From a virus, in the IMG/VR virus record IMGVR_UViG_3300032298_000435, positions 1 to 47,232 of that record: DNA of 47,232 bases; one strand, given 5' to 3'. This document shows positions 1,975-24,555 of this stretch, piece by piece; the stretch's first letter is position 1; every line of letters starts with the position of its first letter. Under the pieces are notes generated by a model, which worked only from the letters and a program-made list of their open reading frames with translations, was not told the DNA's origin and made no database searches. A program made the position numbers and the translations under genes.

Positions 1975-4614
1975 TTATCTTAATTTAAAAATATTCTTGT
2001 TTTCACGATTATTTGATTCAAATAATTTATACTTGGATTCTTCCTGACGAGAATCACCCCGGTCATCGTCACCTCCTGACTTACGAGGATCAGTCCAACC
2101 TACATTTGGTGCTTTTGGATCATCAGCAGTCTTTTCAGCAGGCTTTTGTATATCTGAAGAAGATTTTTCTTGTATAAATTTAATTCCTTTATTACTTATA
2201 CCAATATATACAATATCCTCTTTTTCAATTAAATATGATACTTCTTGTACTGTTAAATAAATACTTCGAACCATTTTTCTTATTGGATCATCAATTTTTG
2301 GATTTAAATAAGATAAAATTATAGATGACAAATCTTTGGATGATTTTCCGCCTGATAAAACAGGATTTTTTGAAAATTCTATTGCAAGTGTATTGACTAA
2401 CTTTCTTTTAAAGATATCTACAGAAGATTTTGAATCAAATGTTATTTCAAATAAATTTTTTAACTTTTGATTTAAATCTTCAGGCTTAAATGAAGTTTGA
2501 AATCTCAAAGTGGTATTATTTATTTGACACTTTATTAACATTGATAAAACTTTATCTTTTGAAATTTTAAGTGCTATTTTAGTCAAAGATTTAGCACTTA
2601 AAAGTGTAGAAGTATTATTTTCTAATTTTGAAAATCTTATTTTTTCAGGAAATTGTATAACTAAACCACTTAAAAAGTCTGGTGTAATTATATCGTCTAA
2701 TTTAGATTGTAATTCTTTAGTTAAACCACTAGGCGGAATAGTTCCATCTGAAGGTGTTGTGCCTGGCGTACCACTACCTGGCGCAGCTGGTTGAGCACCA
2801 CCTGGCGTACCACTACCTGGCGCAGCTGGTTGAGCACCACCTGGCGTACCACTACCTGGCGCAGCTGGTTGAGCGCCACCTGGCGTACCACCATCTGGCG
2901 CAGCTGGTTGATCACCACTAGTAGAAGGGTTAACTTCTGCATTAATAAAATCAAGAATATCTTTAAAACGACTTCCTTGACTTTGCATAAATGGTATTAC
3001 TTGATCTTTTGGTTGTTTAAACATTTTACCCAAATCAGTCAAAAATTCATCATATACTTTTTGTTGTTCAGCATTTAATGCTTCATTAATATTTTCTTCC
3101 CATGTTTCATCAAGTTGTTTTTCATTTTCAGAAATTACATTTGATTTTTTATTTAAAACATAAGTGTTATTATATGATTTAGTAAAAGTTTTTTCTACAT
3201 TTTCTTTTCTAAATCCTCTTTGTAATAATTCTGCGCCTTTTGTAGGATCAAATCTTCGAATTTTTTTGGCAGCAGTTGCATACATTCCTTGATTTGGATC
3301 ATTTGCACTACCAGGTACTATATCTTCAGGTTTTGTGCCGGGAAAACTTTGATTTGTTGTAACACTAGTATCAACGCCAGTATCAGGATATAATTGATTA
3401 GGATTTGTTTGATCAAATGGATATGATCCTCCACCACTTGTAGTAGCTCCGGCAACTGTACCACCCGCTGGAACTCCTCCAGTATAATTTGGTTGATTTG
3501 GATCATACGCTTGATATGGACTACTACTTGCACCGGTTCCAGTAGCACCACCACTTACATTGTCGGGATATAATTTATTAGGATTTGTTTGATCAAATGG
3601 ATATGTTCCACCACCTCCACCACCTCCGCCACCACCACCACTTACATTGTCGGGATATAATTTATTAGGATTTGTTTGATCAAATGGATATGCTCCACCA
3701 CCTCCACCACCTCCGCCACCTCCGCCTTTAGGAACCCCTCCACCTCCTGTAGTTTTTGTAACTTGATATGCATTTGGATCTGCTCCAGGAATTAAACCTG
3801 TTGCAAAATTAGAAATTGCATTAGTTGCAGTAGCACCTAAATTTGCTAGACCATAACCAGCTATAGCGCCACCCAAACCAGACATTACTGCATCTCCGTT
3901 TCCACGACCTTGCGCTTTTGCAATTGCGGCATTGCCAATACCATTTATAAGACTACCGACGATTTTACCTGCAATAGGATTTCCACCAGTTGCTGCTGCA
4001 GCAGCAACACCAGCTCCGAAAGATAAAACACCCAAAAGAAATTTGGTTTTACCTGGGTTATTTACAATTGCTTGTTTAATTTTGTCTTTTAGACCTTTGG
4101 GAGCATTACTGTTATCCACCATCTTCAAACCTTGATTTGGATCTATCGGTGGGGTTTTTTTGGTTTTCTCTTCTATTTCTTTAAATCTCTCTTCTACTTC
4201 ATCGCCAATTTTTGGTTTTTTAGCAGCAGGTGGCGTAGATGATTTTTGAAATTTGTTTTTAAAACCATTGAACAAACTTGCTACTCCAGCATCTTTACTA
4301 TCAGTAGTTTGTTGACCAATGCCCGTGACATTTTTTAAACCTTGTCCAACACGAGCAGCACCTGCTTTAAATCTGTCCCATAATCCCTCGTCAATACTTT
4401 CTAAAAGAAGTGGATCTTGTTCAATCATTTCAAGAAGAACTTTGTCTTTTTGAATGTCAATTGAAAAATTAACACCTGAATCATAGGATTCTTTTAAAAA
4501 TAATTTTAGATCAGAATCTAATTGTTCGTATTGATTTGATTCGAATAAAAAGTCATACTGTAAATCCGATTTTATTTTAATGTTTTCGATTAGAGTGTTA
4601 TTCATGTGATTCAT
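1975..4614 (-). CDS. 879-aa low-complexity protein between protease and scaffold, probable internal head protein
   Basis: The first 75 residues contain many L/I-x-E triplets (for example LIE near 8-10, LLE near 70, IDE near 75), the cleavage consensus of the T4 prohead protease. A Gly/Ala-rich hydrophobic stretch at roughly residues 185-275 looks like a glycine zipper and could span or perturb a membrane. It is followed by poly-Gly tracts, three copies of a YPFDQTNPN-containing unit (two near-identical, one diverged), and later a 13-residue Pro/Ala/Gly repeat at about 570-615. The C-terminal third is ordinary globular sequence with a charged tail. The start at 4614 is used, but MNNTLIE at 4605 is also possible. 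Position between gp21 and the scaffold, together with the possible cleavage sites, points to an internal or ejected head protein. No homologous family was recognised. Confidence 0.8.
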   Translation of the reverse strand: MNHMNNTLIENIKIKSDLQYDFLFESNQYEQLDSDLKLFLKESYDSGVNFSIDIQKDKVLLEMIEQDPLLLESIDEGLWDRFKAGAARVGQGLKNVTGIGQQTTDSKDAGVASLFNGFKNKFQKSSTPPAAKKPKIGDEVEERFKEIEEKTKKTPPIDPNQGLKMVDNSNAPKGLKDKIKQAIVNNPGKTKFLLGVLSFGAGVAAAAATGGNPIAGKIVGSLINGIGNAAIAKAQGRGNGDAVMSGLGGAIAGYGLANLGATATNAISNFATGLIPGADPNAYQVTKTTGGGGVPKGGGGGGGGGGGAYPFDQTNPNKLYPDNVSGGGGGGGGGGGTYPFDQTNPNKLYPDNVSGGATGTGASSSPYQAYDPNQPNYTGGVPAGGTVAGATTSGGGSYPFDQTNPNQLYPDTGVDTSVTTNQSFPGTKPEDIVPGSANDPNQGMYATAAKKIRRFDPTKGAELLQRGFRKENVEKTFTKSYNNTYVLNKKSNVISENEKQLDETWEENINEALNAEQQKVYDEFLTDLGKMFKQPKDQVIPFMQSQGSRFKDILDFINAEVNPSTSGDQPAAPDGGTPGGAQPAAPGSGTPGGAQPAAPGSGTPGGAQPAAPGSGTPGTTPSDGTIPPSGLTKELQSKLDDIITPDFLSGLVIQFPEKIRFSKLENNTSTLLSAKSLTKIALKISKDKVLSMLIKCQINNTTLRFQTSFKPEDLNQKLKNLFEITFDSKSSVDIFKRKLVNTLAIEFSKNPVLSGGKSSKDLSSIILSYLNPKIDDPIRKMVRSIYLTVQEVSYLIEKEDIVYIGISNKGIKFIQEKSSSDIQKPAEKTADDPKAPNVGWTDPRKSGGDDDRGDSRQEESKYKLFESNNRENKNIFKLR
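2763..2912 (-). repeat. 39-bp tandem repeat coding a 13-residue Pro/Ala/Gly unit
   Basis: About 3.7 near-identical copies of a 39-bp unit code for PAAPGSGTPGGAQ in the 879-aa protein. The high identity at DNA level suggests recent expansion by slippage or recombination. Confidence 0.9.
3555..3727 (-). repeat. Two-copy repeat coding poly-Gly plus YPFDQTNPNKLYP
   Basis: Two near-identical copies of roughly 85 bp encode a run of ten or more glycines followed by YPFDQTNPNKLYPDNVSG. A diverged third copy lies near 3375-3430. The poly-Gly codons (CCA/CCT/CCG on the plus strand) are themselves a microsatellite-like tract. Confidence 0.85.
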
Positions 4615-4630
4615 GTGATATGGATATGGA

Positions 4631-4638
4631 TATAAATA
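4631..4638 (-). promoter_or_regulatory. TATTTATA motif upstream of 879-aa gene
   Basis: Minus-strand TATTTATA lies 16 bases before the ATG at 4614. A CCATAT direct repeat fills the spacer. Confidence 0.35.
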
Positions 4639-4665
4639 TAAATTGAATTTGTTTTATTAATATAA

Positions 4666-5283
4666 TTATTTAATTTCGCCTAAAATGTCTCTGATTAAAT
4701 CTTCTACCTTTTCCCACTTATTAGTTAATGGGTTTTTTACAATTCCTTCTTGTAAAGATTGTTCGCCGGATGGAAACATAAATGCACCTTTAGTTGATGG
4801 ATTACTAACAAAATCAAATGCAATTAATTCAAAATCATCTTGAACTTCATCAGTGCCTTCATGTACATTCTTTTTAACACTTCCCATTCCTCTGGAACTA
4901 ATACCCAATTTAATGCCACAATTAAGTAGTTCTTTTAAAATATTACCACTTGGAGTAGTTAAAATTTCAACTTCACCCATTAAATCATTGCCACTCCAAT
5001 ACATTCTTTTAACATTGTGACTTACATTTTTTAAATTCACAACGCTACTGTCTGGATGATCCAATTCACCAAGTGCTCTTCGTTCTCTTATGAAATTTTC
5101 ATCATATTTTTGAGCTTCTCTTTCTAAAAGTTCTTTACCATAAACTCTGCCGTTGAAATTTTTAGCTTCAGCTCTTTGTAAAACACCTTGTACAGTAAAT
5201 GGTCCGCCTTTAGCCATTGCTTCAGTGATCACCGATTTATCTACATCAAATGTTATGTAATCTACTAATAATTTTTTATTCAT
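4666..5283 (-). CDS. 21: Prohead core protease (T4 gp21-like)
   Basis: This serine protease cleaves scaffold and capsid proteins inside the immature prohead before DNA packaging. The 205 residues match the T4 gp21 family: an early beta strand with GPFTVQGVLQRAEAKN and NGRVY, the conserved LGELDHP around His76, and the catalytic serine motif GISSRGMG around Ser129/Ser130. VITEA near residues 18-22 fits the I-x-E self-cleavage consensus, as expected for a protease made as a zymogen. A strong AAAGGAG Shine-Dalgarno sequence lies at 5293-5300, inside the end of the preceding gene, and fixes the start. The gene follows the portal block, as in T4 (20-67-68-21). Confidence 0.93.
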   Translation of the reverse strand: MNKKLLVDYITFDVDKSVITEAMAKGGPFTVQGVLQRAEAKNFNGRVYGKELLEREAQKYDENFIRERRALGELDHPDSSVVNLKNVSHNVKRMYWSGNDLMGEVEILTTPSGNILKELLNCGIKLGISSRGMGSVKKNVHEGTDEVQDDFELIAFDFVSNPSTKGAFMFPSGEQSLQEGIVKNPLTNKWEKVEDLIRDILGEIK

Positions 5284-10477: not shown

Positions 10478-11133
10478 TGATTTAATCCATCCAAAACCAT
10501 TTGTTTTGCTTGTTTCTCGGTTTCTGGATTATAATTTAATTTCGTCAATTCTTCATTGGCTTTTGCGATGTTTTCATCAACATCTTTTAAATCGTTTTTC
10601 AAATCAGATAAAACTTTAACCATTTGATTAGTATCATCCGTCCAAAATTCACTACTTCCATCATCATTGAAAAATTGTAATTTTTCGTTCGTATTTTTTT
10701 CTAAGTATTCAATACTATCAGTGATATTTTTCTTAAAATCTTTCATTTCAGAAAGCATACTATTATAGATTTTATATCGTTCATAGTCTGCATATACACC
10801 CAATACTTTTAATTTGGTGTCAAATGAAATAGTACAATCATAACATTTACCTGTTTTAGGATAAAATCTATCGTCTAAATAATTACCAAATTTCATATCC
10901 GCATTACAAATGCTACATCTTTGATCAATTTTTATTTGACCACATTTAGATACTTTTCTTTTGGTATTGTTTTTCCAAATCCATTTATTACCTTGTCCAT
11001 CTTCCCATTCTTCACCTTCTTTTCTTGTACTATTATTTAAATTTGGATCATATCCCACTTGAATAAATGGACGGTTTCCATCAACATAATCTCTGACGAT
11101 ATTAAGATTGCTTTTTCCTGTTGCTCTTTTCAT
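10474..11133 (-). CDS. Zinc-binding conserved protein in the small-terminase position
   Basis: Encodes 219 residues. The N-terminal third carries KEGEEWEDGQGNKWIWKN. A four-Cys cluster follows, CSICNADM and CYDCTI about 25 residues apart near 73-100, which looks like a zinc ribbon. From about 110 on it is helical, with coiled-coil character up to the C-terminus. It lies directly upstream of the large terminase and overlaps it by four bases, the slot held by gp16 in T4. A comparable zinc-binding protein is common beside terminase in marine T4-like phages. It may replace or accompany the small terminase, but no DNA-binding motif typical of gp16 is visible, so the role is open. Confidence 0.8.
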   Translation of the reverse strand: MKRATGKSNLNIVRDYVDGNRPFIQVGYDPNLNNSTRKEGEEWEDGQGNKWIWKNNTKRKVSKCGQIKIDQRCSICNADMKFGNYLDDRFYPKTGKCYDCTISFDTKLKVLGVYADYERYKIYNSMLSEMKDFKKNITDSIEYLEKNTNEKLQFFNDDGSSEFWTDDTNQMVKVLSDLKNDLKDVDENIAKANEELTKLNYNPETEKQAKQMVLDGLNQ

Positions 11134-14102
11134 AACTTTACTTTTAATCTTTCCAATTCCTTTTTGAAATCATCCAAGATTTCAGTTCTTTTATTTTTAT
11201 AACGAAAAGTATTACCTTTCACTAATTTAATTAGTTTTTCTAAAGTGTTAATGTCATTAAATGTTACATTATCGCCAAATAAAAATTCAGCAACATCATC
11301 CATATCGGTATAAACAGTTTTTATATTTTGTTTTTCCTGTTTACCCTTTTCATTTGTTATAACATCCGCACTTTGAAGACCCTTTTTCCAATTCATTTGA
11401 TATCTCTTCATCTTATTTGGATCTTCGGTGGATTCATAACTATTAGACATAATATTCATTAATAGAATGTTTCTTAATGCGGCCTTATACTTTGAATCTG
11501 GAGCACCAGATAAAGATTTAACCATGAAATTTAAATCACCAATCATCAAATCAATTTGTACATAACCATCTTCATTTGGTATTTCTGTGGATTTTACTGG
11601 ATTGCCGTTTTCATCAATTATAGGTACATTTAAATGTAGTTGATCCAGTCCTGTATTTATTTTAAATGCTGGTGTAGGAACTGTTGATGGTGTATTAGAT
11701 TCTACATGTTGTTTTAGTTTATCATAAAACATCTTTTTATCATAATCATAATTTACACCAAATAATTGATTCAATTGTTCGGTTGATATTGCAACATCAA
11801 TATCACCCAAGACAGGTTTGGATTTATTTCCAATAATTTCATAATTTAATGAATCAAGATTCCATATTTTTAAACCATTTTTTATTGTGAAATCTAGATA
11901 TTGTTTTGGTAAATCACTATTAGCCGCAACCGCATTACCACCTTCTGTAATTAAAAATTCTTTTAATATATCATTGACAATTTTATTTCCCATATCAGCA
12001 TGTTTTTTGATTTTATCAATGGATGCTTGAGTTTCCGGAGTAGTTGCTTTCTTTTCTTTCTTTGAATATTGTTCAATCATTTTTTCTGCGTATTTATCTT
12101 TTATTGCTTTAATGAATGAACCATAATCAAATCCTAAATCGGTAAGAATTCCATTTTTGTCAAGTGTTTTTGCAAATCCAAGAACACCTGTAGTTAAATC
12201 TTTTAATTTAACATCATTTGGATTAACACCACTGTGTGTGGATAAATTTTGATCTATGTCAGTAATTTTCTTTCCAAATAAACCCGCTAAAAAGTCTGCC
12301 AAATCTCTTAAAAATGTACGGGGACTATTAGATATCAATTTATCTACAACATCTTTTCTTAACATTGGAGATACAATCTTACCATCTTTAAATTTAGCTC
12401 TTACTCCTGTATCACCAATTCTAATATTAAGAACTTCTGCCAATGCGGCATACATTCCTCCCATTGTAAATCCTTTTATACCTCTTTCAGGTGTAAATCT
12501 AGCAGCAAACCAATCTTTATATATTTTTGTAGTATATAATAAATCTAATTGAACCCAATCACCATCGTCAAGTTTGATTATAATCTGTTTACCGTCAGAT
12601 CTTTTTGCACTTTCAATATCAATATAATTTTGTCCACTGGTTTCAATGAATTGAATTACATTTTTGATATATTCTTTCTTTGTATCGCTTCCGTCTTCAT
12701 TGGTTTCAATAGGTATAACAACCATTACATCAATATCACCATAAGTTACTTGTGCTTTATCGTGTTGGTCTTGCTTGTAGTAACCAGCAGAACCCAAGAT
12801 TTGATAATCTTTAATCGGAGTTAATGGTATATTACTTAAAAACATATTCAAATCAGCCAAAAAAACTTTGAACTTTTCAGTTGATTTTTCAATTGTATCC
12901 GGTGACAAAACTGTCTTGGATGTAAGTTCTGGCTTTAACCATCCACCTTCATCAATTGGTTGTTTATGTGCAGCTCTATTTGCAGCGCTGAATTTGGAAC
13001 GGGAAACATACTTAATGTCACCTTCTGGATGAGAGAATACATAACCTTCACCACCTGGTTCATTGCCTATATATGATTTAATTTCACTATCTTGATTGTC
13101 TATTTGATTAATAATTTCATCTTTAACCGACATTATTTCTACAACAACTTTCCATAAAGATTCAAATCCAGCACGATTACTACTAACATATTCAGTAATC
13201 TTCTTTTTCATTACATCTGTAAGATTACTTTGACTAATCCATTGTAGAAAATCGTCGCCAATATTCACTAATCCAGTATCAACTTTACTATTCAAGTATT
13301 TATATAATACATCGGGAAAATTAGTCATCTTCATACTTGCCAATTTGGATGGATTAATAAAATCATCTATATTTCTAGCATGTTTATTAATATAAAGTAT
13401 AATATCTTTTAATCTTTTTTCATTTACATTAGGCGGATTATTTACAGATATTGGCGGTATTACTAACAATTGTTTACCTTGAAAAACATTATAATTTGTA
13501 ATCGCAGTTTCATTTCCAAAACTATCCACTTCTCTGTGTACTACAACCGAAGCTTTGCTTTGCGAAATCTTTCTTCCCAATTCAGAATCAATACTAACCG
13601 CATAAGTTACAATGTTTGGTTTGAAAACATATCGTCCATTTTCAATTAATGGCGTATTGAAATACAACAAATCCCCTTTAAAATAACCTCTAAATGTTGT
13701 TGGAACGGCAGATTCAAATACAGAAAATACATTTTTCATTTCTTGAACAAATAATCTATATTCGTCTGTTTTAACACTTTTACCTCTATTCAAAAACATT
13801 TGTTGCAATTCTTCTGGAGATGTTGGTCTACCATTATAACCTTTCGCAACAAATCCACTTTTATCAGTTAATACAAACTTACCTTCATCGTTTCTGCCGA
13901 ATATAACTGCAGGAGAACCATCCCATTTCATTGTTACATTTTTATATCCGTCACTTTCCAAATCAATGAAACTTTTAATGGAACGAATAGCTCCTTTGGA
14001 ACCTTCCCAAAATATCAAATCTTCTGCGTGGTCTATACGAGCAGCTTCGTTAAGTAATATATTAGATACCAAAAATTGTTCTAAATTATTCAGCTTTATC
14101 AT
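11130..14102 (-). CDS. Large multidomain nucleotidyltransferase: ligase-like KxDG domain plus two Pol-beta-like domains
   Basis: Encodes 990 residues. Residues 1-20 (MIKLNNL...LLNEAA) look like a leader ending in an L-x-E prohead protease site. The first domain has VTMKWDGSPAV with Lys59 in a KxDG motif, EGYVF near 353 and IKYVSRSKF near 365, which match motifs I, IV and V of ATP-dependent ligase-type nucleotidyltransferases. A second domain has LGSAGYYK near 436, GDIDVMV near 455 and VQLDLLY near 517, the GS / D-x-D / D pattern of Pol-beta-type nucleotidyltransferases. A third has GDIDVAI near 764 and VQIDLMI near 850. Marine T4-like phages carry large uncharacterised proteins with a similar KWDG start (I believe Pfam DUF6267). 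The substrate is unknown: nucleic-acid repair, RNA modification and host-directed modification are all possible. Confidence 0.75.
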   Translation of the reverse strand: MIKLNNLEQFLVSNILLNEAARIDHAEDLIFWEGSKGAIRSIKSFIDLESDGYKNVTMKWDGSPAVIFGRNDEGKFVLTDKSGFVAKGYNGRPTSPEELQQMFLNRGKSVKTDEYRLFVQEMKNVFSVFESAVPTTFRGYFKGDLLYFNTPLIENGRYVFKPNIVTYAVSIDSELGRKISQSKASVVVHREVDSFGNETAITNYNVFQGKQLLVIPPISVNNPPNVNEKRLKDIILYINKHARNIDDFINPSKLASMKMTNFPDVLYKYLNSKVDTGLVNIGDDFLQWISQSNLTDVMKKKITEYVSSNRAGFESLWKVVVEIMSVKDEIINQIDNQDSEIKSYIGNEPGGEGYVFSHPEGDIKYVSRSKFSAANRAAHKQPIDEGGWLKPELTSKTVLSPDTIEKSTEKFKVFLADLNMFLSNIPLTPIKDYQILGSAGYYKQDQHDKAQVTYGDIDVMVVIPIETNEDGSDTKKEYIKNVIQFIETSGQNYIDIESAKRSDGKQIIIKLDDGDWVQLDLLYTTKIYKDWFAARFTPERGIKGFTMGGMYAALAEVLNIRIGDTGVRAKFKDGKIVSPMLRKDVVDKLISNSPRTFLRDLADFLAGLFGKKITDIDQNLSTHSGVNPNDVKLKDLTTGVLGFAKTLDKNGILTDLGFDYGSFIKAIKDKYAEKMIEQYSKKEKKATTPETQASIDKIKKHADMGNKIVNDILKEFLITEGGNAVAANSDLPKQYLDFTIKNGLKIWNLDSLNYEIIGNKSKPVLGDIDVAISTEQLNQLFGVNYDYDKKMFYDKLKQHVESNTPSTVPTPAFKINTGLDQLHLNVPIIDENGNPVKSTEIPNEDGYVQIDLMIGDLNFMVKSLSGAPDSKYKAALRNILLMNIMSNSYESTEDPNKMKRYQMNWKKGLQSADVITNEKGKQEKQNIKTVYTDMDDVAEFLFGDNVTFNDINTLEKLIKLVKGNTFRYKNKRTEILDDFKKELERLKVKL

Positions 14103-14859
14103 ATGGTTTTAAAAATGTTTTATCAAATGTCGTAATTGCTTTGTTGTAGGAACGTTTGGTTTCGTCAAGAGGATTATCTGTAAATTGCCAATTCCAAAAT
14201 AATTCATTTGGTGTTTTAAATCCAAAAAATTGTAATATTTCTTTTTGTGTTTGAGTAACATCTTTTCCATTCCAATTTTGACCTGTAGCAATAAATCCTG
14301 AATCTATATCTTTTACTATATTGCTTTCACCCAAAGTAGAGTGTCTGTTCTCAATCCACGTCAATCTTTCAATTAATTTCTGATAAAAACCATTGGCTTG
14401 TCCCCATCTCACACTAGCAAAAAATAAAACAGTATCACTTTCAAATAATTCTTTACTTATTTTCCATAATTCATCACTTTTATTATTTATACTAGCCCAA
14501 CAACGATGTTCGCCTGTAGGATTTTTCTCTTTATCTTTTAAGGAAGAATCTTTTGTTCCACAATGATTTCCCCATTTAGATGATACGTTACCCTCACACG
14601 GAAATATGTTTAACTTGGTTGTATCAATCAAAGTTACTTTTTCTTTACCAAGTAATTCTTGTATTTTAAATGCAAGTTGTGTACTTTTAGCAATATCATC
14701 TTTATGTCCACTCCATCTATTGCTGGTAGTTAATAATAGTACTTTATTTTTACCTCGTAAATAATCAATGGTTTTCTTATACTTTTTAGCATAAATATCC
14801 ATATCTTGTTCACTAGAAGGTAATTGAGCTTCTAATAATAAGTCAGTTAACTTAATCAT
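14086..14859 (-). CDS. Flavodoxin-fold / NAD(P)H-dependent FMN reductase-like protein with MIKL leader
   Basis: Encodes 257 residues. After a leader MIKLTDLLLEAQ, in which L-L-E fits the prohead protease consensus, the protein has a flavodoxin-like start: strand VLLLTTSNRWSGHKDD near 40-55 (the phosphate-binding loop position), then VTLIDTTKLNIFPC. A Cys-containing insert has Cys near 88, 99 and 119, and the next strand TVLFFASVRWGQANGFYQKLIERL corresponds to the FMN-contacting loop. The family reduces quinones, nitro compounds or iron-sulfur partners. The three Cys do not match a known Fe-S flavoprotein spacing exactly. It overlaps the 990-aa nucleotidyltransferase gene by 17 bases, so the two are co-expressed. 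Substrate unknown. Confidence 0.7.
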   Translation of the reverse strand: MIKLTDLLLEAQLPSSEQDMDIYAKKYKKTIDYLRGKNKVLLLTTSNRWSGHKDDIAKSTQLAFKIQELLGKEKVTLIDTTKLNIFPCEGNVSSKWGNHCGTKDSSLKDKEKNPTGEHRCWASINNKSDELWKISKELFESDTVLFFASVRWGQANGFYQKLIERLTWIENRHSTLGESNIVKDIDSGFIATGQNWNGKDVTQTQKEILQFFGFKTPNELFWNWQFTDNPLDETKRSYNKAITTFDKTFLKPYDKAE

Positions 14860-14935: not shown

Positions 14936-17900
14936 TTAGGCTCCTGGGAATGTAGCACCAGTTGGGAGAATGTTGAAATCAAGTACGATGAATTCAGCAG
15001 TCTTAGCTGGTTGTAGATAGATTTGACCGTATAGGATGTTTCTATCAACCAAGTCAGGAGTATTATTTGTATCATCCATTACAACTTGGAAAGCGTACAA
15101 TCCACTACGTTGTTGTACAGATTCCAAATATGGATTTACGATACTCAAGAAACGGTTTCTTGTAGCAGCCACATTTTGTTCGAATACCAAGAACTTACTG
15201 CTACTTGCAATAAACTTCTTAAGTGCGATTAACAATCTACGAACGTTTACTCTGTCAAGAGCACTTGGTTGAATTTGAAGTGTCTTTTGTCCCCATACAC
15301 AAATACCTTGACCAGGGAATGCTGCGATTGGGTTTACACGTCCTTCATACAAGGTATCACGTTCACTGTGGGTTGTTCTGTCTAGAACTTGAACTGCTTG
15401 AGCAATTCCACCACGATTTAGACCTGCGGGAGCAAACCATTCAGCAGCAGCATTGTCATTAGCAGCATAAACTGATGGCATTACTACTGATGGTGGTACA
15501 CTTATAATCTTGTTCAAGTTGGTGTCTAGAATCTTAACCCAAGGATAATATGTAGCAACATAACTGCTATCGATTGTAGATACATCATTTACTGCTGCAT
15601 CAATCAATCCTACAGTTTGGTTACTTGATGGAAACACTACGTTATCCATAATGTAGAATGTATCACCACGAGCTTCACACATATCCGTTACCAATTGGGT
15701 AACATAACTGTGTTGTTCGTGGAAAACACCAGGTGTTACAATCAAGTTGATGTCAAATTCATCTGCATTTCCAAGAGCACCTACACATTGTTTGTAAGCG
15801 ATTGAACCTGCACTATTGATATTTGTACAATTTAAACCTTGTGTATTACCTGCGATAATATTACTTCCAACATTAATTGGAATTGCAGGTGATTGACCAT
15901 CAAATCCACCTTGGAAACCTACTACGAACTTACGCATCTTGACATATGTAGCTTCGTTAGCTGCATCATATGTTGAAGGAATACTACCGCTCAATGAAGC
16001 AGCAAGTAGTGAACCAGTTCCAACATTAGAACTTATTGATTCCAAATCAAATGCGATATTGTGTCCTACAGTAGCACCAAATGGTAGAGGATAAAAATAT
16101 TCTTCTGTATCATATTTTACACCTGCATTTGTTGAACTTGTTGGGTATAAAGAAGTCAATTCAGAATCAGCACCAAGTGGAATATCACTGATTACTGTAC
16201 CAGATGCGTATTTACCAGGAGCTAATCCATAAATACTTGCTTTACTATATTGTACTACTGGAATATAATTTCCAATTGTACCTCCTAGTGGAGTTACATA
16301 TGCTTCGTTACCATAAGGAACAGCAGATACTGGATATGGTACTGTATTCATTTCAATTCTTACATACTTACTCAAGTTTGTATAAGTACCAAATTCAATG
16401 ATTTTACCAGCATAAGTAATGAAGTTGTATCTATCACCAATTCTACGAGCTACGAAGTTTGAAGAATTAGGATCTAGACTCAAGTTTTGGAAGATTTCCA
16501 AATACTTTGGTTTCTTATCAGTATCACTATAAGATCTTACAGCAAGTGTAAATGATCCCCAATCACTTCCTGCAACAGTACTAGATAATTTAACATTACT
16601 AATTTCAATCTTGTATTGTTTATTTGTGATTGTACCATCACTCACAGTGTGTACTTTAAACAATTGATACTTGGTTGTAGAACCACCTGTATTAGATGTT
16701 CCACTCCAAGGAGCAATTCCTTGTGAAAGAATCCAAGGTGTTGCTGCACTTGTTAATCCGTATTGAGAATCACCTGCGTTTAAGTTTGTTGAATATTGAT
16801 CGGTAAACTTTAATGTTTCACCTGTTGAGAATGAACCAGATGAAGGTATTCCTGCGTATATTTTCCATCCTGGGTTTCCACTATTTAATTCATCATTTAC
16901 TTTTTGAATTGAATCTTCGAATGTATTATATAAATAAGCTGCTTCAATCTTAGTACCGGAAACTTGATCATTTTGATTACCAACGGTTGGATCATTTCCA
17001 AATACATTTGTAATATAATTTGAATCAGCAGGATTCAATGAGAAGTCATAGTAACCAATTAATGAACCATTTTGTGATAAAGTCAATTGGAAATCACTCA
17101 ATGATGTTGGATTTTGAGATCCACTATAATTTCCAGATGTTGCGGTTTTTTGATTCAATACAGAACCACTGAAACCAGGAGCATTAAAACTACTATCCAA
17201 TGTACCATATTGAGTATTTGATAATACAGCAAGAACTCTTGGATAATAAGATACTGCGGTTGGATTACATGGATCGGCTGGTGCAGACCATTGTGGTGTA
17301 AATGTTCCTGTAATTTTACCAAATGAACCACTGATTACACCCTTAAGATATACTTGTGTTCCACAACCAGTTGAAGATCTTAGAGCAAATATACTACCAC
17401 TTACGAGTGTAATATTTGTACCAACAAGATTTCCATCTGAATTGGTAATTGTTACACTATTTGCAAGTGAAGCACTAAAATTTGAAGTGGTTGATGTAGA
17501 TTCTGCAATTGATTGTAATAATTTAGCATCATTTGTATAAGATGTATTTCCTTGATAAGATGATGTTACATATACAGTTGCGAATGTTAACGCACCTACA
17601 GTAAAACTATAAGTTTGACCACTGTTATATAAACTGCCATTTGCAGAATTTACATCTAATGTAGTGTTATCACCAGCGGTTGAATTAAATTTTGCGGTGA
17701 ATGTAGCACCAGATACAAATGATAGTGATCCACTTGTGCTTGCTGATGCATAAGTAAATGTACTGGAAATATTGTCACTATCATATAGTACATATGAAGA
17801 TCCACTATTTAAGGCACCAGCAGAACCGCTTCTGGCCCAAGTACCTGGTTGTGCCCAGATTACGAATGGGTTGATTTGTCTATATCCTGTCAAAGCACCG

Positions 17901-18181
17901 ACACGACATACGGTTACAAATCCTTTTTCCTTAAGATATTCTTTTGCGGTGTATGGTCCATAATAAACACCATCAGCTACACCGAACTTTTCTTCAAGAT
18001 CGGCTGTGTTGGTGATTAATGTTGGTGCGAATCCAGGACCTTTTGGAAACGGAGCAAGTATTACTGCTCCGATTTCGGCAACACCTTGTGCTACTCCGCT
18101 TAGGTCGTTTTCTCTTGTAAATACTCCTGGGCTGACTATACGGTCAACAGGACTAAATTTTCCTCCTTCAGTTATTGGCAT
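14936..18181 (-). CDS. 18: Tail sheath protein (T4 gp18-like), enlarged
   Basis: This is the contractile sheath subunit that drives the tail tube into the host. The N-terminus has the typical SPGVFTRENDLSG near 17-29 and a FGVADGVYYGPYTAKEYL segment near 66-83. The C-terminus has GVFHEQHSYVTQLV, WFAPAGLNRGGIAQAVQ, NPIAAFPGQGICVWGQKTL and RVNVRRLLIALKKFI, the conserved core that forms the inner tube-facing domain. At 1081 residues it is far longer than T4 gp18 (659). The extra sequence is a Ser/Thr/Gly/Asn-rich middle at roughly 100-700, probably surface domains. A GAAAGGAA Shine-Dalgarno sequence at 18190-18197 fixes the start. A tail tube gene (gp19), which follows in T4, is not present here. 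Confidence 0.95.
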   Translation of the reverse strand: MPITEGGKFSPVDRIVSPGVFTRENDLSGVAQGVAEIGAVILAPFPKGPGFAPTLITNTADLEEKFGVADGVYYGPYTAKEYLKEKGFVTVCRVGALTGYRQINPFVIWAQPGTWARSGSAGALNSGSSYVLYDSDNISSTFTYASASTSGSLSFVSGATFTAKFNSTAGDNTTLDVNSANGSLYNSGQTYSFTVGALTFATVYVTSSYQGNTSYTNDAKLLQSIAESTSTTSNFSASLANSVTITNSDGNLVGTNITLVSGSIFALRSSTGCGTQVYLKGVISGSFGKITGTFTPQWSAPADPCNPTAVSYYPRVLAVLSNTQYGTLDSSFNAPGFSGSVLNQKTATSGNYSGSQNPTSLSDFQLTLSQNGSLIGYYDFSLNPADSNYITNVFGNDPTVGNQNDQVSGTKIEAAYLYNTFEDSIQKVNDELNSGNPGWKIYAGIPSSGSFSTGETLKFTDQYSTNLNAGDSQYGLTSAATPWILSQGIAPWSGTSNTGGSTTKYQLFKVHTVSDGTITNKQYKIEISNVKLSSTVAGSDWGSFTLAVRSYSDTDKKPKYLEIFQNLSLDPNSSNFVARRIGDRYNFITYAGKIIEFGTYTNLSKYVRIEMNTVPYPVSAVPYGNEAYVTPLGGTIGNYIPVVQYSKASIYGLAPGKYASGTVISDIPLGADSELTSLYPTSSTNAGVKYDTEEYFYPLPFGATVGHNIAFDLESISSNVGTGSLLAASLSGSIPSTYDAANEATYVKMRKFVVGFQGGFDGQSPAIPINVGSNIIAGNTQGLNCTNINSAGSIAYKQCVGALGNADEFDINLIVTPGVFHEQHSYVTQLVTDMCEARGDTFYIMDNVVFPSSNQTVGLIDAAVNDVSTIDSSYVATYYPWVKILDTNLNKIISVPPSVVMPSVYAANDNAAAEWFAPAGLNRGGIAQAVQVLDRTTHSERDTLYEGRVNPIAAFPGQGICVWGQKTLQIQPSALDRVNVRRLLIALKKFIASSSKFLVFEQNVAATRNRFLSIVNPYLESVQQRSGLYAFQVVMDDTNNTPDLVDRNILYGQIYLQPAKTAEFIVLDFNILPTGATFPGA

Positions 18182-21369: not shown

Positions 21370-24300
21370 TTATACATAATTAACTTTAGAGAACCCGTTT
21401 TCTTTCTTAATTTCAAGTCTATTGTCAACCATATCCCTCATACTATCCAAATGACTAATAATCCATACGAAATCAAAATTAGTCTTTAAGAACGCAAATA
21501 AAGCACCCATAGACGATAAATTATCTGCATCTGCACATCCAAATCCTTCATCTATAGCTATAAAGTTGGGTCTTGGTAGATTACTAATATTAATTAATGC
21601 GACTCTCATAGCCAATGAACTAACAAATCGTTCCATACCACTAGCCAATTCCAATGGCCAGCGTTTATCTTCATAATTAATATGTGTAGTTACATTTTTA
21701 CCATCTGTCTGTAAGGTTACCGTAAATTCTACTATTTGGTTTAATATGTTATTTACTTCCTTTTCAATTGTTGGTAACGCCTTACTAATCAATTCATATG
21801 GAATACCATCTCTGGATATTGCATTTGTATACAATTGATATGCTTCATATTCAACTTCAAGTACTTTAACATCTTCAATTGATTTTTGAATAGTCTTTCT
21901 TTGTTCTTCAAATCCAGAAATTTTTGTATTATAATTAATAATGTTGTTATTTACATTCTTAATTTCTATATCAATAGTTTTGATATTGGATTTAATTGAA
22001 TCAATTGTATCTTTAACAGTTTTGTTAGATTCAATTGCATCTTTATTATTATAATATTCTTCAATTTGACTTTCAACATTAATGAGAGAGTTCTGGTCAG
22101 AACTAATCTTATTTGATATCTTTAGAATTTCAGTATTTAATTTGTTAATTTTAATCTGTGTTTCAACATATAATTTATGAACATCATTATACTTTTTCCA
22201 ATGATCCTTTATATAAGACACTTCATTAATTTTGTTTTTAATATTATTATATTCACTAACAAGACTTTGAGCTTCAACTTTATCTAATTCCAATTCTTCT
22301 CTTGTTTTAATTGCATCTTTAACGAACACATTTGTTGTACAAAAATTACAATTTGGATCATACTTATGTTCTTCTAACTTCTTTAATTTCTGTAGTTTAG
22401 ATGTAACAACAATCTTTTTCTTTTCAATAAGATGTTCTTTTTGACTAAATGATGATTCCAGTTCTTTGAACAATTCATACTTAGTTGTAATATCATCGTT
22501 TTCATAGTTCTTTATAATTTCATCATATTCTTTGTATGTTGATTCAATAGATGATAATTGAGATTTATATGAATTTAAACTGGAAGATTGTGTTGATATA
22601 GAATTTTCCAATGAAATCTTTTTTGATTCAATAGAAACAATATCAATGATATTACTATTAATATTAATAAGTTTTTTGGTTTCGTCTAAAAGACATTCAT
22701 TTTCAGAATCCCGATTGTTAGATAGTTTTTCTAAATTAGTATTTTCATTTTTTAACGAACCCGAAAAGTTTTCTATATCCGAATTTAAATTCAATAAATT
22801 CTGGGTATAATCATTATTCTTGAAATTCTTTAATAATGAATTAATTTCTTTAGTCTTATCAGCCGCATCGTTATACAAACTATCAAATATAGTTAGTCCC
22901 ATAAATTGAGCCAACAAATCTTTTCTTTCTGTTTGTCCCATATCTACAAATGATCCAACCTTATTGTTTTGAATACTCAAGACAGTTAAAATAAAATCGT
23001 CATATGTACCTACATAATCACGAATAATATCATTGGTACTTCTACGAGCTTCACCATTAAGTTCTACAACTTTACCACCTTCTTCTTTCCAGAACTTTAC
23101 ATCTACTTTGACATTGCCTTTTTTATCCGCATGTCCTTTTCTTTCAATGAAGAAATCTACACCATTAACTTCAAAGTTAAACTTACAACGGAATGTCACC
23201 TTTTGCGTATTAAGAATGTGAGATGCTTTGAATGCTCTATCACATTTATCAAAAATACAAAAAGATAATGCAGACAATACACTTGATTTACCCGCAGCAT
23301 TATTAGCAAATAATCCAACTACATTATGCATCTTAGTAAAGTCAATAACATTGTCTTCACCATAACTAAACATATTGTCAAATTCAAATTTCTTAGGTTT
23401 CCATCGAATATTTCTAACGATAGATTCTTTTTCTAAAGAAACATTTAAATCTTTGTTTATTTTATAAATCTTTTCAAGTGTATCTTTTGTTGGATTTAAA
23501 TTCTGGTTACTAAGATAGTCTGTTATCAACTTATTTTGATAATCAACATCAGACACATCGGCTAAATTAAAATTATTATTATCAATAATATTACTTGAAG
23601 ATGTATTTAATGAATCTACACGAACATATGTCACTTCCATTACCTCTGATTTTTCTCGGATAGATGACAATACAGATTTAACTTCAGTTGCAACGCTTTC
23701 AAAACACTTTAATCTAAGTCTTGCCTTTTTAGGCATATTAGAAATATCAGTAATTAAATTACCTTTATTGATTTCCGCAGTATAAAATCCATAATCATTT
23801 GGAATTTCAAAGTGTTTAAATACTTTGGTCTTTAAATCCCAAAATACAAATCCGTGACCTTTAAGATCTTCGCCATGATTCTGTTGGATCAGTGAACCAC
23901 AATAAACAATTATTGGATCAGATTGACTTAGAACTTGATGTCTGTGAATATCTCCCAACAATACAATATCGTGTCCGTCAAAGATTTCGTTTGTAATAGT
24001 TCTACTCGCAACTTTATATCCTACATCAGTAATTGCATTGTTTACTGGACCGTGGAATAAAGCAATTTTATAACGGGTTTCATTTAAATAAATCTTTGGA
24101 ATGTCTTTTACTTTAATATATTTATCCGGTTCATCAAATACACTATAGTGATTAAACAAAATATCGCCCAAGATATAAAGTCCAGAATCCTTTAGATAAA
24201 ATAAATTTTTATGATTAATCGCATCAACAATTGGACTCAAACTATCTAATCTGTTTTTATTGGCCAAAGTAGCATCGTGATTACCTGAAATCAATATCGT

Positions 24301-24555
24301 TGGTCTTCTATCTGCTAGATTTTGTAAAAATTCAGATGTAATCTTTACACATTCAGGTGAAAGATCGCTCTTTGAATGCAAGACATCTCCTAATACGGTA
24401 ACTACGGTTTCCGTAGGTGTCTTTTCTATTGCTTTATACAATCTTTCAAATACTTGATTGTATTCATCGTGTCTCTTTGTAAGACGCAAATGAATATCCG
24501 CAATGTGAAATACATTCTTGAATTCTTTTATATCTGATTTAAGATATTTTGCCAT
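21370..24555 (-). CDS. Single-chain recombination nuclease: gp47 (Mre11/SbcD) fused to gp46 (Rad50/SbcC)
   Basis: Encodes 1061 residues. The N-terminal half is a calcineurin-like phosphoesterase: DIH at 20-22, GD at 56-57, GNHD at 91-94, FHGP with His168, and GDIHRHQ at 201-207. From about residue 385 an ABC/SMC ATPase follows: Walker A GLFANNAAGKSS at 414-425, long coiled coils with a zinc-hook CNFC at 736-739, signature LASGMER at 970-976, and Walker B with Asp1002/Glu1003 in AIDEGFG. In T4 these are two adjacent genes, 47 and 46, which make the exonuclease that resects DNA ends for recombination-dependent replication and degrades host DNA. All catalytic residues of both halves are visible. 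The gene begins one base after the primase stop. Confidence 0.93.
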   Translation of the reverse strand: MAKYLKSDIKEFKNVFHIADIHLRLTKRHDEYNQVFERLYKAIEKTPTETVVTVLGDVLHSKSDLSPECVKITSEFLQNLADRRPTILISGNHDATLANKNRLDSLSPIVDAINHKNLFYLKDSGLYILGDILFNHYSVFDEPDKYIKVKDIPKIYLNETRYKIALFHGPVNNAITDVGYKVASRTITNEIFDGHDIVLLGDIHRHQVLSQSDPIIVYCGSLIQQNHGEDLKGHGFVFWDLKTKVFKHFEIPNDYGFYTAEINKGNLITDISNMPKKARLRLKCFESVATEVKSVLSSIREKSEVMEVTYVRVDSLNTSSSNIIDNNNFNLADVSDVDYQNKLITDYLSNQNLNPTKDTLEKIYKINKDLNVSLEKESIVRNIRWKPKKFEFDNMFSYGEDNVIDFTKMHNVVGLFANNAAGKSSVLSALSFCIFDKCDRAFKASHILNTQKVTFRCKFNFEVNGVDFFIERKGHADKKGNVKVDVKFWKEEGGKVVELNGEARRSTNDIIRDYVGTYDDFILTVLSIQNNKVGSFVDMGQTERKDLLAQFMGLTIFDSLYNDAADKTKEINSLLKNFKNNDYTQNLLNLNSDIENFSGSLKNENTNLEKLSNNRDSENECLLDETKKLININSNIIDIVSIESKKISLENSISTQSSSLNSYKSQLSSIESTYKEYDEIIKNYENDDITTKYELFKELESSFSQKEHLIEKKKIVVTSKLQKLKKLEEHKYDPNCNFCTTNVFVKDAIKTREELELDKVEAQSLVSEYNNIKNKINEVSYIKDHWKKYNDVHKLYVETQIKINKLNTEILKISNKISSDQNSLINVESQIEEYYNNKDAIESNKTVKDTIDSIKSNIKTIDIEIKNVNNNIINYNTKISGFEEQRKTIQKSIEDVKVLEVEYEAYQLYTNAISRDGIPYELISKALPTIEKEVNNILNQIVEFTVTLQTDGKNVTTHINYEDKRWPLELASGMERFVSSLAMRVALINISNLPRPNFIAIDEGFGCADADNLSSMGALFAFLKTNFDFVWIISHLDSMRDMVDNRLEIKKENGFSKVNYV

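Follow-up and report, generated by a model that had tools for sequence, protein, structure and literature searches.

The stretch of DNA considered here, referred to as the window, is the 47-kb IMG/VR virus record IMGVR_UViG_3300032298_000435 (47,232 nucleotides), whose genes for portal, terminase, tail sheath and baseplate are of the T4 type. At 11130-14102 its minus strand holds an open reading frame (ORF) for a protein of 990 amino acids, designated P0001; on the plus strand, stop codons are frequent throughout this place. P0001 almost certainly consists of three modules, a ligase-type module (LIG) and two nucleotidyltransferases (NTases) of the Pol-beta type (NT1 and NT2). This ORF and its three modules had been put forward in an original prediction made from the DNA letters. 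Both are upheld here, the latter by invariant catalytic residues, Pol-beta fold matches, the motif order of ligases, weak ligase fold matches and recurrent linkage of the modules. Each module is directly preceded by a predicted prohead-protease site, and P0001 may represent a capsid-delivered, protease-released kit for the repair of nucleic acid ends. Its features are listed below with residue numbers of P0001, a slash marking a predicted cleavage position and pLDDT denoting the predicted local distance difference test score of structural models.

11130-14102, minus strand: P0001, LIG (DUF6267)-NT1-NT2 polyprotein, 990 amino acids (ORF call, Pfam, motifs)
14046-14102, minus strand: N-terminal propeptide resembling a capsid-targeting sequence, residues 1-19, disordered (pLDDT ~30), ending in LNE/A (NILLNE19/A) (model, motif, conservation)
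12960-14045, minus strand: LIG, residues 20-381, ligase-type NTase module (Pfam PF19782, E 3e-30; AlphaFold2 pLDDT 89, predicted template modelling score (pTM) 0.85; invariant motifs)
13917-13928, minus strand: LIG motif I, K59-W-D-G62, with the predicted lysine accepting adenosine monophosphate (AMP) (conservation, sequence)
13671-13673, minus strand: D144 of GDLL, motif III-like (conservation, sequence)
13038-13049, minus strand: LIG motif IV, E352-G-Y-V355 (conservation, sequence)
12999-13013, minus strand: motif V-like K364-Y-V-S-R368 (conservation, sequence)
12945-12950, minus strand: predicted protease site IDE385/G386 at the LIG/NT1 junction (motif; residues 382-395 disordered; homologous to the N-terminal ITE/GGW of standalone NT1)
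11961-12947, minus strand: NT1, residues 386-714, Pol-beta-type, without Pfam or PHROG family (model, fold match, conservation)
12729-12740, minus strand: NT1 G-D456-I-D458, with GS at 12789-12794 and the third Asp, D520, at 12543-12545 (conservation)
11940-11945, minus strand: predicted protease site ITE720/G721 at the NT1/NT2 junction (motif; sole segment of the NT1-NT2 model with pLDDT<50)
11133-11942, minus strand: NT2, residues 721-990, Pol-beta-type, without Pfam or PHROG family (model, fold match, conservation)
11796-11807, minus strand: NT2 G-D767-I-D769, with the third Asp, D851, at 11550-11552 (conservation)

The Pfam match of the ligase-type module to DUF6267 spans residues 23-378. 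Apart from DUF6267 the Pfam scan of P0001 yielded one chance match and no known RNA-ligase family (Rnl1/Rnl2/Rnl3-type), and an NCBIfam scan gave nothing above the cut-off. Weak Pfam matches of P0001 and the NT modules (RXLR, HisKA and similar) were dismissed as chance. DUF6267 is found in 470 phage records and is widespread in cyanophages; no mention of it was found in the literature searched. The family was aligned with relatives from cyanophages, Pelagibacter phage HTVC008M, Vibrio and Pseudoalteromonas phages and IMG/VR, giving 53 domains, mostly 20-52% identical to the query, plus two close copies. Residues K59, D61, G69, K81, D144, H25, E27, H189, E352 and G353 are invariant among the 53 domains, and G62, P64, K364 and R368 are conserved in at least 90% of them. 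The KxDG site at Lys59 and the plausible motifs IV and V claimed in the original prediction are thus borne out. Motif I reads K59-W-D61-G62-S-P64, K81-S82 forms an Ia-like motif, and motifs I, Ia, III, IV and V stand in the same order as in ligases and capping enzymes, with a single Lys in motif V and Asp replacing Glu in motif III as departures. The PHROG family phrog_455 appears to cover residues 134-657 of P0001; that NT1 belongs to this family was rejected, since phrog_455 also matches LIG-only proteins and its member in S-PM2 consists of LIG and an NMNAT domain.

In the AlphaFold2 model of LIG, disorder is limited to residues 1-19 and 382-395. A Foldseek search of the PDB returned adenylyltransferase domains of the fungal tRNA ligase Trl1 as its top three matches (E 0.04-0.3); DNA ligases I/III and RNA ligases came next, and CorA channels formed the background. 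Against viral models (BFVD), the first annotated matches outside DUF6267 were RNA ligases, among which a protein of jumbo phage Atu_ph07 (E 2.5e-3, prob 0.93). A profile comparison of LIG with this Atu_ph07 'RNA ligase' was not significant, and their kinship is suggested by gene order and fold match only. The model itself is confident and ligases dominate its relevant matches; an ATP-grasp-like ligase fold of LIG is considered likely, short of proof.

The aspartate triads of the two other modules are invariant as well, D456, D458 and D520 of NT1, together with G437-S438, in 18 relatives (~30% identity) and D767, D769 and D851 of NT2 in 32 relatives. Conservation of Lys59 and of the DxD pairs among homologues, a check proposed with the original prediction, was therefore found throughout, and the positions given there for the two NTase patterns (436-517 and 764-850) were right within a few residues. 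Of the two GS/DxD/D patterns the Asp triads stood, while the GS of NT2, present as GS or GT in its relatives, is replaced in the window protein, which reads GNKS. NT1 and NT2 are two different families; Pfam and PHROG scans of the members of both gave no family match, and no HhH or BRCT domains were recognisable in the Pfam scans. An RlaP identity of NT1 and NT2 is unsupported, as no RlaP model was among the Pfam matches of their members. The joint AlphaFold model of NT1-NT2 has a pLDDT of 83. Its 50 best Foldseek matches in the PDB were all pol beta, pol lambda or TdT (E from 1.5e-4, prob up to 1.0), in an output that attributes no match to NT1, NT2 or both and from a database in which pol beta is heavily represented. 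A Pol-beta palm fold in this part of P0001 received a probability of 0.98-1.00 for the best matches. The fold search suggested earlier thus bore out the Pol-beta part, and gave weak yet consistent ligase matches for LIG.

In other phages LIG, NT1 and NT2 occur as separate overlapping genes, as pairs or as fusions in other orders. Locus L190, for example, has three overlapping genes (NT2 1846-2652, NT1 2649-3668, LIG 3665-4756), an order found in many contigs. Among 119 non-redundant loci, NT2 and LIG were adjacent genes in 27 and fused as NT2-LIG in 20 (plus 5 cut), and LIG stood next to NMNAT in 12. Less frequent were the gene orders NT2, NT1, LIG (7) and NT1, NT2, LIG-NMNAT (3), the LIG-NT1-NT2 order of the window (2) and others. 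A search seeded with NT2 alone recovered LIG in 60 of the 66 loci. In Atu_ph07 the gene overlapped by NT2 matches Pfam RNA_ligase at a sub-cutoff score. In Pseudomonas phage PA5oct a protein with KxDG and EGYV motifs, weakly matching the DUF6267 profile, is encoded three genes away from NT2. That distantly related phages link the modules in so many arrangements argues strongly for joint action, and LIG, NT1 and NT2 very probably constitute one cooperating system. A third, independent fusion order was seen in an 815-aa NMNAT-NT2-LIG protein (L295 4389-6836). In HTVC008M a PNK-like P-loop kinase (AGE60463, phrog_505; L046 9709-10371), with the N-terminus MIPFILKE/G, is encoded two genes from DUF6267 and is a possible end-healing partner.

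The prohead protease gp21 of T4 cleaves after L/I-x-E (PMC9026906). P0001 contains exactly three [LI]xE[AGS] tetrapeptides, LNE19/A, IDE385/G and ITE720/G, each directly preceding a module. Wherever a close homologue extends over one of these sites, the site is kept; IMG/VR holds 45 loci near-identical or ~90% identical to P0001. Each of the three segments of P0001 with pLDDT<50 contains one site, which, given three sites, has a chance of ~2.5e-5. Standalone NT1 and NT2 carry a site at their extreme N-terminus (near residue 5-23) in 12/12 and 18/19 cases, respectively. Just upstream of the LIG core a site was found in 33/33 distinct fused proteins and in 75 of 100 free LIG proteins, against a background of 11%. 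In T4, a 10-residue propeptide of internal protein IPIII suffices for capsid targeting (PMC9026906), and IPII and IPIII begin with MKTYQEFIAE/A. Unrelated neighbour genes in the relatives share an N-terminal tag of this kind (MRAREFIxE-like), present in 85 of 1133 distinct ORFs versus 0.6 expected from the internal rate, an enrichment that is an upper estimate because the expectation ignores N-terminal sequence bias. A candidate processing enzyme is encoded in the window itself:

4666-5283, minus strand: gp21-like head maturation protease, with a site of its own, VITE21/A (phrog_207, E 1e-52)

It might be argued that the E/GG segments are conserved structural N-termini of the modules and not protease sites, P0001 remaining uncut as a single trifunctional enzyme. 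The residues following E (GGW, GGN) are themselves conserved, and the cleavage sites are predicted only. However, the segments are predicted to be disordered, and the stretch upstream of E varies in length and sequence yet keeps LxE. NT2 of Atu_ph07 and PA5oct begins with M-GGRAF and M-SGNAF, just past the site position, which argues that the stretch upstream of the NT2 site is dispensable. An uncut enzyme is considered improbable, and the P0001 chain is probably processed and packaged. In place of the single machine in one chain envisaged in the original prediction, the data point to a polyprotein in which a predicted prohead-protease site stands ahead of every module.

Virion studies of related phages have given relevant detections. 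The cytidylyltransferase T4-GC190 was detected in the virion of Synechococcus phage S-SM1 (PMC3037559); its gene adjoins the DUF6267 gene (T4-GC71) in this phage and its N-terminus reads MKKFSAFLNE/A. Likewise, the cytidylyltransferase of S-CREM2, starting with MKNFSSFLTE/A, was detected in virions (PMC10665884). The NT2 homologue of PA5oct (EST35_0231) is annotated in its sequence record as a structural protein by electrospray ionization tandem mass spectrometry (ESI-MS/MS). The T4-derived tag [FYLIW]xxF[LIM]xE occurs in 5/13 non-structural or hypothetical virion proteins of S-CREM2 versus 0/34 others (p 8e-4), in a post hoc test that examined two regions with a pattern chosen after the sequences had been seen; the broad LxE[AGS] motif was not significant for virion proteins of this phage (p ~0.07). 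A Cas9-like endonuclease, gp12 of S-CREM2, was also reported in virions (PMC10665884). Its gene (L303 4705-7314) encodes a T4-like tag, RFASFMAE/A, and gp12 is possibly a packaged and injected nuclease.

Taken as a whole, the data are best explained by P0001 being a capsid-delivered, protease-released kit for nucleic acid end repair, an account to which we give slightly less than an even chance. Residues 1-19 would act as a T4-like capsid-targeting sequence, bringing the chain into the prohead, where a gp21-like protease would cut after E19, E385 and E720, so that the tag is lost and LIG, NT1 and NT2 are set free. The three enzymes would then be injected along with the phage DNA. LIG would be a covalent nucleotidyltransferase of the ligase superfamily with AMP loaded on Lys59; NT1 and NT2 would rebuild nucleotides lost from broken ends and LIG would seal them, from the first minute of infection onwards. 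The modules, the conservation of their catalytic residues, their linkage, the positions of the sites and the protease gene are shown here, whereas packaging of P0001 itself, its cleavage, catalysis by its modules and their substrate are predicted. A function combining nucleotide addition with ligation, as in the original prediction, is plausible, and nucleic acid end joining is somewhat favoured as the function of the kit.

Besides the limits of the NT1-NT2 fold matches given above, several observations weigh against this account. In the PDB, Foldseek found no match for LIG at E<1e-3 and TM-scores were low, and profile searches of PDB sequences gave no usable match for LIG, NT1 or NT2. LxE[AGS] is a short motif, ~1.9 occurrences being expected per 990 amino acids; its N-terminal enrichment in HTVC008M as a whole is only mild (20/161 versus ~10 per bin), and the tail sheath of the window, starting with MPITE/GG, also fits it. 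Free LIG proteins lacking a site are mainly of the cyanophage type, most cyanophage LIG being untagged. The LIG-like protein of PA5oct (0228) is not marked as detected by mass spectrometry, and LIG is absent from the S-CREM2 virion list though its gene is in the genome (58914-59531). In cyanophages LIG sits in the gp43-uvsX-gp41-mazG replication cluster (for example L300 5935-6909, SSM1_189 of S-SM1), and no T4 g30 DNA ligase has reportedly been recognised in cyanomyoviruses (PMC2984593), which favours DNA as the substrate.

Several of these points would suit an unpackaged, intracellular DNA ligase with X-family gap-filling polymerases, replacing gp30 of T4 and mending replicating phage DNA at nicks, gaps and ends, with LxE sites that are coincidental or serve another purpose. 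Such a role would agree with pol beta, pol lambda and TdT as best fold matches, with the reported absence of a recognised g30 ligase from cyanomyoviruses, with the lack of a tag on most cyanophage LIG and with the position of LIG among replication genes, including a DnaB-like helicase gene adjoining it in L102. It does not account for the strict retention of the site where modules are joined in two independent types of fusion (33/33) and at the N-termini of unrelated partners, nor for the virion detection of PA5oct NT2 and of the cytidylyltransferase partner. The window gene moreover lies between tail sheath and terminase, away from replication genes. We regard this explanation as unlikely, though it deserves more weight than an uncut enzyme.

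A further explanation, related to the modifier of host RNA or protein that the original prediction offered as an alternative, is that host proteins or small molecules and not nucleic acids are the targets of the modules. These might act, for instance, through AMPylation by Pol-beta NTases or through NAD/nucleotide chemistry involving the NMNAT-like partner, in a packaged set for host takeover. The NMNAT/cytidylyltransferase-like partner is indeed fused to LIG in several lineages. The Pol-beta and ligase-superfamily folds include enzymes acting on substrates other than polynucleotides. Packaged Alt of T4, to which such a set would be similar, modifies host RNA polymerase (PMC9026906). On the other hand, polynucleotide ligases and DNA polymerases using templates or primers head the fold matches, and the Atu_ph07 partner has its sub-cutoff match to an RNA ligase family. 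A host-modifying role, too, appears to have only a small chance of being correct.

For the capsid-delivered repair kit, RNA is slightly favoured over DNA as the presumed substrate. Matches of LIG to Trl1 and to RNA ligases, the Atu_ph07 partner, the tagged PNK-like kinase that HTVC008M encodes close to DUF6267 and the precedent of RlaP (PMC7824862) point to RNA; an example of a target would be tRNA cut by host defence nucleases. Pol beta, lambda and TdT matches, the placement of LIG within the replication clusters of cyanophages and the g30 ligase that cyanomyoviruses reportedly lack (PMC2984593) point to DNA, in which case the incoming DNA of the phage itself could be the target.

Repair by a ligase with a Pol-beta NTase is already known, as are injected proteins targeted to the capsid. 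As far as found, the literature searched holds no description of their combination, of the two NTase families or of a prohead-protease polyprotein of repair enzymes. If DUF6267 is a ligase, it would be a candidate for the DNA ligase reported lacking in cyanomyoviruses (PMC2984593) or a new phage RNA-repair enzyme. NT1 and NT2 would each represent a new family of NTases. From the conserved presence of the cleavage sites it is predicted that phage heads are pre-loaded with repair enzymes that are ready ahead of phage gene expression, which bears on the survival of phages facing nuclease-based defences at entry.

The P0001 gene is flanked by P0002 and the tail sheath gene on one side and by P0003 and the genes for the large terminase subunit and portal on the other. 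The gene next to it is the following:

14086-14859, minus strand: P0002, 257 amino acids, overlapping the start of P0001, N-terminus MIKLTDLLLE/AQ (sequence, site motif)

P0002 is possibly a second packaged cargo. By eye it resembles flavodoxin/FMN-reductases, and neither a family nor a PDB match was found; a PDB sequence search with P0001 alone also gave no match. Elsewhere in the window, the tail sheath (14936-18181) measures 1081 amino acids and is far longer than gp18 of T4, and a 1061-aa ORF (21370-24555) fuses SbcD-like and SbcC-like parts that T4 encodes in separate genes. An 879-aa ORF without family match (1975-4614) has four LxE[AGS]-type sites within its first 80 residues and is possibly a head or scaffold protein.

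Islands of unrelated genes sharing a start tag were observed in L205 (2221-7485), L217 (3075-8947) and L185 (3552-6170), with tags MRAREFIxE, MRAKEFLLE and MKIQELLIE. They are probably sets of capsid-targeted cargo, and injected phage effectors could be sought in such islands on a genome-wide scale. Just downstream of the RNA-ligase/NT2 pair of Atu_ph07 (L318 9673-14296), at least five tandem proteins of ~250 amino acids have M[RK]WxQLxE as their N-terminal tag and conserve a YRGM motif; an Alt-like ADP-ribosyltransferase identity was suspected for these, for which Pfam gave no support.

P0001 can be compared with several known systems. In X-family DNA polymerase and DNA ligase pairs of base excision repair and in those resembling non-homologous end joining, polymerase and ligase are likewise paired and the polymerases agree with the fold matches of NT1-NT2, but no sequence relationship was detected and NT1 and NT2 lack the HhH/BRCT domains sought in the Pfam scans. 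The Trl1 adenylyltransferase domain provides the top PDB matches of the LIG model and shares its covalent-lysine motif set. It differs by ~10% identity, a low TM-score and E 0.04-0.3, by the large helical insertion of LIG between motifs III and IV, and by the absence of a CPD or kinase domain from the P0001 chain. DUF6267 of cyanophages (PHROG 455, T4-GC 71) belongs to one family with the N-terminal module of P0001, but there it is a separate gene or an NMNAT-like fusion, usually untagged and without NT1/NT2. In jumbo phages, RlaP Pol-beta NTases with Rnl1/Rnl2 RNA ligases were suggested to put back nucleotides that had been lost and to seal tRNA (PMC7824862, in which DUF6267 is not mentioned). 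These systems also co-encode Pol-beta NTases with a KxDG-type covalent nucleotidyltransferase ligase, a genomic association mirrored by LIG in 60/66 NT2 loci and by the weak RNA_ligase match in Atu_ph07. In contrast, the ligase of the window is DUF6267, NT1 and NT2 have no Pfam RlaP match, and two NTases are present in one polyprotein with capsid-targeting and cleavage sites. There is a fair, though less than even, chance that a new ligase-superfamily enzyme and two new Pol-beta NTases are made as a polyprotein that is targeted by one tag and cut in the capsid, with T4-like and jumbo phages carrying the same kit as separately tagged genes; capsid-delivered repair would then be a general phage strategy. 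With the internal head proteins and Alt of T4, cargo that enters the host with the DNA, P0001 shares a short N-terminal propeptide ending in L/I-x-E/A or G and a gp21-like protease in the genome; what sets it apart is that the cargo, its packaging being predicted, would be a three-enzyme polyprotein with internal sites.

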